From: Spirochaetota bacterium | GTDB lineage: Bacteria; Spirochaetota; Spirochaetia; Treponematales; UBA12059 | Direction: 5' to 3' | Length of the DNA stretch: 45,677 nucleotides | NCBI GenBank assembly: GCA_018815555.1 | Contig: JAHIWF010000158.1 | Span: 1 to 45,677, forward strand | Shown: positions 2,123 through 35,096 of the stretch, in pieces | How the letters are laid out: each line of letters opens with the position of its first letter | Numbering within the stretch: position 1 is the stretch's first letter | Position numbers and translations under genes: made by a program | The notes under the pieces: generated by a model | Databases searched by the model: none | The model's input: the letters and a program-made list of their open reading frames with translations, nothing else | What the model was told of the DNA's origin: nothing

Positions 2123-3337
2123 ATGACCGAAAACAGTAACGCAGCAGCCAAAACCCGCAGCATAGTTATATTTACCTTACTAAGTTCGGTTTCATGGATG
2201 ATCTACAAAGTAGCCTTCAATCTTTTCCTGCGCGAACGCGGCTTCGACAACCAGTTTATAGGCACCATCGCCTCGTACGAAATGATCGGTTCGGCAATAT
2301 TGGGACTGGTTATTGCGGTACTGGGAGACCGCTTCGGCAAAAAGCGGGTTCTGGTCGGAATATCATTCGGATTCGGGCTGGTGCTCATACTTAAAGTATC
2401 ATTCCCGATTCCGGCATTTCTGCTGTCCATAGCCTTTCTCAGCGGCGGACTGCAGATGTCGCGGATGATGCTGTTAAATTCGCTATTGATAGATCTAACC
2501 GACCACGGCAGCCGCGGCAAAGCCTTCGGACTTAATTTCGGAGTACAGATGGGCAGCGGCCTGTTCGGAAATTTTATCGGCGGTGTACTCGGCGAGCAGA
2601 TCGGCATGACCAGTACACTGATTATCGCTGCACTACTTTATATACTGTCCAACGTATTCCTGGCAAAAATACCGAATATAAAACCAGGCAAGCTGTTGCC
2701 GCTGCGTGTTTTTTTCGACATCCGCGGCCTCTTGCCAGCCGAACGTAGCACCGTGACAAACCATCTCTTGGAAACATTTTTTGTTTCCTTCGGTGCCGGC
2801 TTGTTTGTAAACTTTGGCAATATAATTTTCAAAGACCTTTTCGATCTGTCGCCAACCATGATCGGCACGGCGCTTTCGATTGCCCAACTGGGAGCCGGTA
2901 TCGGATCGGTACTATCGTGGCGGCTGGCTCGGCGCTATGGCGCGGTTTCCTATGTCGGCCTGTTAACTTTTCTGGTGGTTCCGCTTATTATCGCGTTAGG
3001 CTTTATCCGCGACCCCTATATTTTTACAGTTTTTTACGCTGTACGCTTTTCTTTCATGAATATGACCAATCCGGTCGTTACTACCTGTGTGCTCAGTAAT
3101 GTGCCGGCCGACCGGGTTACAGCAATAAACAGTATCAAGAATACGCTCAACCATATCTCGCGCGCCATAGCGGCGGCGGTGTTCGGCCTGATCGTAGCGC
3201 TTCCTTCAGGTTATACTATCTTATTCCTGCTAAGCTCGGTGTTCTACGCACTCGGGTTTTTCTTTCTGATGCGGGTGCTGCTGCCGCTGAAACGTGCCGG
3301 CAAACTACAGAGCCTATATGGCGGAGAAAAATCATAA
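2123..3337 (+). CDS. MFS transporter
   Basis: MTENSNAAAKTRSIVIFTLLSSVSWMIYKVAFNLFLRERGFDNQFIG... GDRFGKKR motif, about 12 hydrophobic segments. The ORF-track TTG start at 2087 coincides with the -35 box. Confidence 0.85.
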   Translation: MTENSNAAAKTRSIVIFTLLSSVSWMIYKVAFNLFLRERGFDNQFIGTIASYEMIGSAILGLVIAVLGDRFGKKRVLVGISFGFGLVLILKVSFPIPAFLLSIAFLSGGLQMSRMMLLNSLLIDLTDHGSRGKAFGLNFGVQMGSGLFGNFIGGVLGEQIGMTSTLIIAALLYILSNVFLAKIPNIKPGKLLPLRVFFDIRGLLPAERSTVTNHLLETFFVSFGAGLFVNFGNIIFKDLFDLSPTMIGTALSIAQLGAGIGSVLSWRLARRYGAVSYVGLLTFLVVPLIIALGFIRDPYIFTVFYAVRFSFMNMTNPVVTTCVLSNVPADRVTAINSIKNTLNHISRAIAAAVFGLIVALPSGYTILFLLSSVFYALGFFFLMRVLLPLKRAGKLQSLYGGEKS

Positions 3338-33312: not shown

Positions 33313-34320
33313 ATGAACACACTCAAACATCTGGCCGTGCGCGGCAGCGACATCCTGGTCGCAACTGATTCCATAAATCCTGACCAAACTGTGCCAGTCG
33401 ACTGCTGGCTGCATCCTGTCCTGCCGGCGGAGTTTTTGGCTCTGGCAGAGGACCATTGCCCCTTGTCACTGGCCGTCACGCCAAGCCGCTATGTTGTTCA
33501 TTCCTTTTCTGTTGACCAGCTGTCGCCGGCAAACTGCAGCTGGCTGCCGCTACGCGACCTGGTATACCGACTGCCCGAAGAAAGCTGGCTGCCGGCGGCC
33601 CGGGCCATGGCCTATGCCAACTGGCATCGCGGAAACCGCTTCTGCGCACGCTGCGGCGCGGCCATGGCGGATGCCGCACAGACAGCAGCGGCAGGTACAG
33701 CTGCGGCCGCTACAGTTTGGCTGTCCGGCAGCCCAGGCGCCGCAGCGGAGGCCCCAACAGCGCTGCCTACTCCGCCTTCTGCCGTCAGCCCAGGTTCCGG
33801 GTCTGGCTCGAGTGTCGAAGCGGCGGCCGTACCAAAGGCAGCACCTTTTGCCTCTGCCGCGCTCGCCGCCGCCGAGCCGGGAGAGCTGGCACTGCGCTGC
33901 ACCGGTTGCGGCCAGCTGCTTTTTCCGCGGATTTCGCCGGCTATCCTGGCGGTGGTGGTAAAGGACGGCAAGCTGCTCTTGGCCAGAAACGCCGCCAACA
34001 AGCAGGGCTTCTGGAGCCTGGTAGCCGGTTTTATGGAACCAGGCGAGCGCTTCGAAGACTGCGTCCGGCGCGAAGTGCGCGAGGAGGTTGGCATCGAGGT
34101 GCAGGTAGACGGCTATCTTGGTTCGCAGCCCTGGCCCTTCCCCGACCAGCTAATGGTAGGATTTTCGGCCAGCTGGGTGTCCGGCGAGCTAAAACCCGAC
34201 GGCATCGAGATTGCCGAGGCGCTCTGGTTTGCTCCCGATCAGCTGCCGCCGGTGCCGCGCAGCGGCAGTCTTTCGCGCCGCCTGATCGATCAAGCCTGCA
34301 AAAAGCTGTCAGCTAGCTGA
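33313..34320 (+). CDS. nudC: NAD+ diphosphatase NudC (Nudix) with extended zinc ribbon
   Basis: FCARCG ... CTGCGQLLFPRISPAILAVV, Nudix box GFMEPGERFEDCVRREVREEVGI, SQPWPFPDQLM; start reset to ATG 33313. Confidence 0.9.
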   Translation: MNTLKHLAVRGSDILVATDSINPDQTVPVDCWLHPVLPAEFLALAEDHCPLSLAVTPSRYVVHSFSVDQLSPANCSWLPLRDLVYRLPEESWLPAARAMAYANWHRGNRFCARCGAAMADAAQTAAAGTAAAATVWLSGSPGAAAEAPTALPTPPSAVSPGSGSGSSVEAAAVPKAAPFASAALAAAEPGELALRCTGCGQLLFPRISPAILAVVVKDGKLLLARNAANKQGFWSLVAGFMEPGERFEDCVRREVREEVGIEVQVDGYLGSQPWPFPDQLMVGFSASWVSGELKPDGIEIAEALWFAPDQLPPVPRSGSLSRRLIDQACKKLSAS

Positions 34321-34341: not shown

Positions 34342-34364
34342 AAAATACATTTATAATGTATTTT
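34342..34364. promoter_or_regulatory. Perfect 10-bp inverted repeat (3-nt spacer), candidate distal operator
   Basis: AAAATACATT TAT AATGTATTTT. Confidence 0.6.
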
Positions 34365-34367
34365 AAT

Positions 34368-34393
34368 CAAATAATATGTTGACATATTATTTG
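34368..34393. promoter_or_regulatory. Perfect 11-bp inverted repeat (4-nt spacer) centred on the -35 box
   Basis: CAAATAATATG TTGA CATATTATTTG; -35 TTGACA at 34379-34384. Confidence 0.7.
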
Positions 34394-34407
34394 TCAGGTA
34401 CTATTAT
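34379..34407 (+). promoter_or_regulatory. Strong sigma70-like promoter of the GGDEF-RHH gene
   Basis: TTGACA - 17 nt - TATTAT, then SD aggagg. Confidence 0.75.
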
Positions 34408-34424
34408 AATTCCAGGAGGACACT

Positions 34425-35096
34425 ATGACCACTACAAACCTGGATACACTTACAGGCCTGCCCAAGCGCGAGGCCCTGGAAAAAGCGCTGGATCAGTTGA
34501 TGGAGAACGGCGATACCGGTTGTCTGACTCTGGTACTCTGCGATGTGGACAAATTCCTGGAGATAAACCAGGCGCATGGGCATGCCGGCGGCGACGCGGT
34601 ACTAAAACTGGTGGCAAAGGCACTGCAGACTGCCGGCGACAGTCTGGCTATCCGCTACGGCGGTGACGAGTTCGCTGTCATTTTTAAGGGTGTGGAACGC
34701 GAGCAGGCCTTCCTACGCATGGAAAAAATCCGGGCCGAGCTGGCTGAAATCAAACAGATAGAAGCCGACGGCAAGCAGCAGGCTTTGCGCTTCAGCATCA
34801 GTGCCGGTATTTCGGCCTGGCCGATCGACGGCAGCAATCAGGCCGAACTGATGCGCAAGGCCGACGCCGCGCTCTACCGGGCCAAACTTGGCGGCCGCAA
34901 CAAGATCATGCTGGCCTACGAGGAAAAAATGGTGCCCAAGACCGCCCATTTTACCGCCACCCAGCTGGAGCGCTTAAGCGATCTGGCCAAAGACCAAGGT
35001 GTTGGCGAAGCGGTGCTGCTGCGTGAAGCCCTCGATGAACTGCTAACCAAGTACGTGCATGGCTTCCAGCGCACTGGCATGCCCACGGCTGGCTGA
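34425..35096 (+). CDS. Soluble diguanylate cyclase (GGDEF) with C-terminal ribbon-helix-helix-like domain
   Basis: GGDEF: DTLTGLPKREALE, CDVDKFLEINQAHGHAGGDAVL, RYGGDEFAVIF; C-terminus KTAHFTATQLERLSDLAKDQGVGEAVLLREALDELLTKY fits a CopG/Arc RHH pattern. Confidence 0.8.
   Translation: MTTTNLDTLTGLPKREALEKALDQLMENGDTGCLTLVLCDVDKFLEINQAHGHAGGDAVLKLVAKALQTAGDSLAIRYGGDEFAVIFKGVEREQAFLRMEKIRAELAEIKQIEADGKQQALRFSISAGISAWPIDGSNQAELMRKADAALYRAKLGGRNKIMLAYEEKMVPKTAHFTATQLERLSDLAKDQGVGEAVLLREALDELLTKYVHGFQRTGMPTAG

Follow-up and report, generated by a model that had tools for sequence, protein, structure and literature searches.

A block of DNA at positions 34342-34410, in front of a forward-strand gene whose 223-aa product joins a GGDEF domain to a ribbon-helix-helix (RHH) domain (34425-35096), would be the promoter-operator of that gene. 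Its promoter and those of related genes have in common a palindromic box of 7 bp, RTANTAY, that recurs about every 13 bp; such an array is present in six of the seven members of the family, including the window (the whole stretch of 45,677 bp that was analysed), and thus in five of the six relatives. RHH dimers of the GGDEF-RHH protein probably stack on this array and thereby repress transcription of their own gene. If this is true, the fusion of a diguanylate cyclase to a DNA-binding domain with an identified target forms a very small circuit that is open to experiment: an enzyme of c-di-GMP metabolism regulates the gene that encodes it, and no additional transcription factor is needed. Direct measurement of binding, repression and nucleotide effects is helped by the shortness of the box, its constant pitch and a target that is almost unique in the genomes searched; for this subfamily of RHH domains, the array also predicts a binding code. 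Enzymes with an RHH domain that act as autorepressors are already known; here, the enzyme is of the second-messenger type. No earlier report of a GGDEF-RHH fusion was found in the literature searched, which consisted mostly of open-access papers.

The GGDEF-RHH protein and its family

The window protein consists of a GGDEF domain (residues 5-160, positions 34437-34904; PF00990, 2.9e-37) and a C-terminal RHH domain (residues 174-210, positions 34944-35054; RHH_3, PF12651, 1.3e-5, over its cut-off of 21.6 bits), separated by a linker of only about ten residues. The two profile matches agree with the earlier note, which had read this gene as a GGDEF-RHH fusion, and are the only family matches of the protein; none of the enzyme domains of PutA is found in it. 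The GGDEF motif is intact (RYGGDEF) and the metal/GTP-binding motif, DVDKFLEIN, is present, so that the protein has the sequence characteristics of a diguanylate cyclase and is predicted to synthesize c-di-GMP. The RxxD I-site, which is responsible for product inhibition and is expected just before the GGDEF motif, is missing in all seven aligned members.

In the predicted structural model, the GGDEF domain is confident and the RHH part, with helices at residues 178-191 and 197-214, has a pLDDT below 50. Such a result is expected for a single chain of an intertwined dimer modelled from three aligned sequences, and the RHH assignment therefore rests on sequence. All seven proteins share the strand PKTxH[FY]T, and the last segment (EExxxPKTxHxT, EAxLLREALDxLLxK) is more conserved than the cyclase part. 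When the strand is aligned by eye with those of known RHH proteins, P171, T173 and H175 would be the residues that face outwards; they are invariant in the alignment of the seven members. RHH_3 scores above the 21.6-bit cut-off in four of the six relatives and falls just under it in the other two (P0001, 20.6; P0002, 20.1).

The family is rare. A search that covered relatives, the order, the phylum, two families, GTDB contigs, viral contigs, phages and plasmids yielded six further members, namely those of G001, G010, G011, G093, G326 and one contig of the viral collection, a small sample of seven with the window. The G001 protein, from the same genus (GTDB record Spirochaetes bacterium GWB1_60_80), is 68% identical to the window protein overall and about 90% identical in the RHH part. 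Of the phage-record matches to the whole protein, the top three that seemed to be full-length were looked at individually and rejected, the RHH part being missing from them; searching the plasmids with the RHH part gave no match.

Palindromes and the box array

The promoter scan places a -35 hexamer TTGACA at 34379-34384 and a -10 hexamer TATTAT at 34402-34407 (both on the + strand, 17-nt spacer), which together agree with the consensus at 11 of 12 positions and are followed by a Shine-Dalgarno sequence, AGGAGG, at 34414-34419 (+). The upstream neighbour on the same strand is nudC, the gene for NAD+ diphosphatase (33313-34320), and the 104-bp intergenic region is 74% AT, in a window with about 50-65% GC per kb. 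Two perfect palindromes, neither of them assigned to a strand, occupy this region: AAAATACATT-TAT-AATGTATTTT at 34342-34364 and CAAATAATATG-TTGA-CATATTATTTG at 34368-34393, the latter with 12-bp arms around a central TG and centred on the -35 hexamer. Among perfect inverted repeats with a loop of 0-8 nt in the whole window, the second palindrome (26 bp) is the longest, and the first is joint second with one other repeat with 10-bp arms. In dinucleotide shuffles of the intergenic region, 12-bp arms appear in none of 4000 and 10-bp arms in 0.35%. The observations of the earlier note thus hold in full as far as the two palindromes, the enclosure of the -35 hexamer by the 26-bp palindrome, the 17-nt spacer with TATTAT and the AT-rich character of the block are concerned. 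The search that it had proposed for the 26-bp palindrome elsewhere in the genome returned no further copy with up to 3 mismatches, and no match was found in the viral collection; a family of repeats or mobile elements was rejected on these grounds.

As a conserved unit, the large palindromes did not stand up. In the relatives the sequences differ and the palindromes as such are not kept, whereas the RTANTAY boxes at their pitch of about 13 bp are; the expected conservation in orthologous promoters accordingly applies to the box array alone. In the window, motif matches predict three operator boxes (strandless): box 1, ATAATAT, at 34371-34377; box 2, ATATTAT, at 34384-34390, which lies 13 bp from box 1 and overlaps the -35 hexamer by one base, the last; and box 3, GTACTAT, at 34398-34404, which lies 14 bp from box 2 and overlaps the -10 hexamer. 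Boxes 1 and 2, opposed across the -35 hexamer, make up the 26-bp palindrome. Palindrome 1 contains no exact box; a box with one mismatch, GTATTTT (34358-34364), forms its right end, in the 13-bp register upstream of box 1.

The six promoters hold 23 boxes, against a mean of 4.5 (maximum 9) in dinucleotide shuffles, and in seven box pairs the distance is exactly 13 bp (0.03 expected), in addition to pairs at 12, 14 and 26-27 bp; the box motif was picked after inspection of the sequences, which makes these counts optimistic. The pitch was noticed afterwards and played no part in the choice of the motif: 11 of the 17 spacings between neighbouring boxes are 12-14 bp, compared with 1.5 under random placement, and 11 was reached in none of 100,000 trials. 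The matrix test and the genome searches given below are less sensitive to how the motif was picked. A matrix built from the other five promoters, combined with the spacing rule, ranks the window promoter first in the whole window (47.1 vs 27.1 bits), with a smaller lead against an AT-rich background (25.2 vs 18.9). In G326, the array is weak compared with the AT-rich background of that genome itself (P 0.18 for RTAATAY, a closely related form of the box).

The statements on whole genomes that follow rest on pattern searches. In the 45.7 kb of the window, boxes 12-14 bp apart occur only at the GGDEF-RHH promoter, and in the regions from G093, G010 and G011 they likewise occur only at the GGDEF-RHH genes. 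Genome-wide, two boxes at 13 bp are found twice in G010, both times in the GGDEF-RHH promoter, and four times in G011, three of them in that promoter, with no match to the reversed-pattern control in either genome. In the window's own genome, the same pattern gives five matches vs four in the control, so that two boxes alone are insufficient there, and in the AT-rich G326 it is uninformative (11 vs 26 in the control). Three boxes, with one mismatch allowed, occur at four places in 23 family genomes, namely the GGDEF-RHH promoters of G000, G010 and G011 and an intergenic site in G011; the reversed control gives a single match across all 23, and the three-box array is absent from all 19 family genomes without a detected GGDEF-RHH gene.

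The additional G011 site (contig 7, L058, about 1501-1533) reads ATATTAC-N6-GTAATAC-N6-GTAATTC, is flanked by an ORF that ends at 1380 and, at 1798, a gene of unknown function, and is on its sequence a candidate for a second target of the regulator. Another sequence, ATACTATTTTAGCATARTAT, considered as a second target common to the window's genome and G001, was rejected as coding: it lies inside a 448-aa ORF, which by eye we take to be a replicative helicase. On contig 6 of G001 (L070, about 1501), a two-box match is flanked by copies of the repeat GTCGCCTCCTTCGCGGGGGCGTGGATTGAAAC, in an arrangement resembling a CRISPR array.

Proposed self-repression and the competing readings

The RHH dimer has two-fold symmetry and inserts a two-stranded sheet into the major groove (PMC7156744), so that a 7-bp symmetric box fits one dimer. 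In the proposed mechanism, each C-terminal RHH dimer would occupy one box, and boxes about 13 bp apart would be filled side by side over the -35 and -10 hexamers; dimers stacked in this way would shut out RNA polymerase, and the diguanylate cyclase would thereby repress its own synthesis. We infer that the RHH domain is the binder, that binding is cooperative and that its effect is repression. At a guess, the 13-bp pitch gives room for the attached GGDEF domains, and GTP or c-di-GMP, on the GGDEF domain or bound by the RHH domain itself, might set the affinity. Autoregulation by the RHH domain, the simplest hypothesis of the earlier note, thus gains strong comparative support from an array that covers the promoters of relatives with other neighbouring genes and is found almost nowhere else, with the change that the operator unit is the 7-bp box rather than the palindrome.

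Several characterized systems provide parallels. Trifunctional proline utilization A (PutA) is an enzyme with an RHH domain that serves as the autogenous repressor of its own regulon (PMC5293562). The window protein, an enzyme that likewise carries an RHH domain and for which autorepression is predicted, has what a PutA-like autorepressor should have, conserved and nearly exclusive operator-like sites over its own promoter. It differs from PutA, a metabolic enzyme with an N-terminal RHH domain, in the C-terminal position of this domain, the second-messenger type of the enzyme and the operator formed by an array of 7-bp boxes with a pitch of about 13 bp; a similar mode of action is possible, although the protein itself is no PutA. 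The Omega protein (ParB of pSM19035) binds as RHH dimers to iterated 7-bp repeats, in either orientation, that overlap promoters including its own (PMC9499535). Its WATCACW heptads are non-palindromic and contiguous; no such unspaced heptads are found here, the boxes being palindromic RTANTAY at a pitch of 12-14 bp. AmrZ of Pseudomonas, an RHH repressor of its own gene, binds two half-sites as a dimer of dimers (PMC3325190), and differs in the lack of an enzyme domain, half-sites five base pairs apart and further targets. In CdbA of Myxococcus xanthus, an RHH DNA-binding domain is linked with c-di-GMP, which alters binding (PMC7156744); unlike the window protein, CdbA is a stand-alone nucleoid protein with a GC-rich consensus, many genomic sites and no cyclase domain, and it was not returned by the profile search of solved structures.

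The palindromes could be nothing but AT-rich promoter sequence or a terminator of nudC, without a bound regulator: promoter regions are expected to be AT-rich, and the RNA of the region could fold into two weak hairpins of -6 and -9 kcal/mol. The stems are nearly all A-U, no U-run follows 3' of them and the consensus scan finds no terminator-like site in the region, which led to the rejection of the nudC terminator, the alternative that the earlier note itself had set against its reading. Moreover, shuffles of the same composition fail to give the repeats, the boxes or the 13-bp pitch in the six promoters, and a block free of any regulator appears very improbable. The boxes might also be the operator of another transcription factor that controls the GGDEF-RHH gene in several species. 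Such an arrangement is consistent with the status of the RHH domain as a putative binder, with the retention of this domain in G001 without boxes and with the further triple-box site in G011. It seems unlikely, given that none of the 19 genomes without a detected gene has the array and that the two-box pattern of G010 is confined to this promoter, so that the regulon of the other factor would be a single gene; in addition, PF12651 detects no second RHH_3 protein in the window's genome.

A third reading extends self-repression by the GGDEF-RHH protein, is compatible with it, and makes repression one of several outputs. The array would anchor the cyclase to DNA, such that binding switches activity or the product switches binding; this is a tentative possibility, ahead of the preceding two. 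GGDEF enzymes act as dimers, and the linker to the RHH domain is short, both of which fit such a coupling. Equally tentatively, GGDEF-RHH dimers on the 13-bp array might couple occupancy and cyclase activity, with c-di-GMP synthesis and repression switching each other in place of the feedback through the missing I-site. On the other side, the G326 protein has SRDEF instead of GGDEF, so that catalysis is not always kept, and for AmrZ, likewise an RHH protein, c-di-GMP is not a ligand (PMC7156744).

The G001 exception and gene neighbourhoods

The earlier note had counted palindromes missing upstream of orthologues against its reading, and this situation, with the boxes absent as well, is encountered once, at the GGDEF-RHH gene of the closest orthologue (G001). 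There, the gene starts only 37 bp after nudC, compared with 104 bp in the window, and is therefore probably part of the nudC transcript. Because more distant relatives have the array, its loss in G001 would be the simpler reading of the sequences. As the RHH domain is kept in G001 without boxes, it must have another role there, and autoregulation is not the sole reason for its retention. The NudC proteins of the two genomes differ as well, in that a long Ala/Pro/Ser-rich insert inside the zinc ribbon of the window NudC (33313-34320) is absent from that of G001 (335 vs 265 residues).

The genes that flank the GGDEF-RHH gene vary among the members and include a livF-type ABC gene, a nitroreductase gene, phage genes and nudC; the array therefore travels with the GGDEF-RHH gene and not with a neighbour. 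In the G326 member (L044, 1039-1674), the GGDEF motif is degenerate (SRDEF) and the RHH part is kept, a sequence pattern which suggests that DNA binding can outlast cyclase activity. The viral-collection member (L045, IMG/VR 3300032167_005931) has both the GGDEF-RHH gene (2524-3171) and a box array, on a contig assigned to viruses, and the gene adjoins genes that match phage protein families of unknown function. Similar HD-like genes lie downstream of the GGDEF-RHH gene in G010 (L078, 7322-8239) and G011 (L005, 973-1884); they match PF01966 weakly, under its cut-off, and could encode a phosphohydrolase partner.
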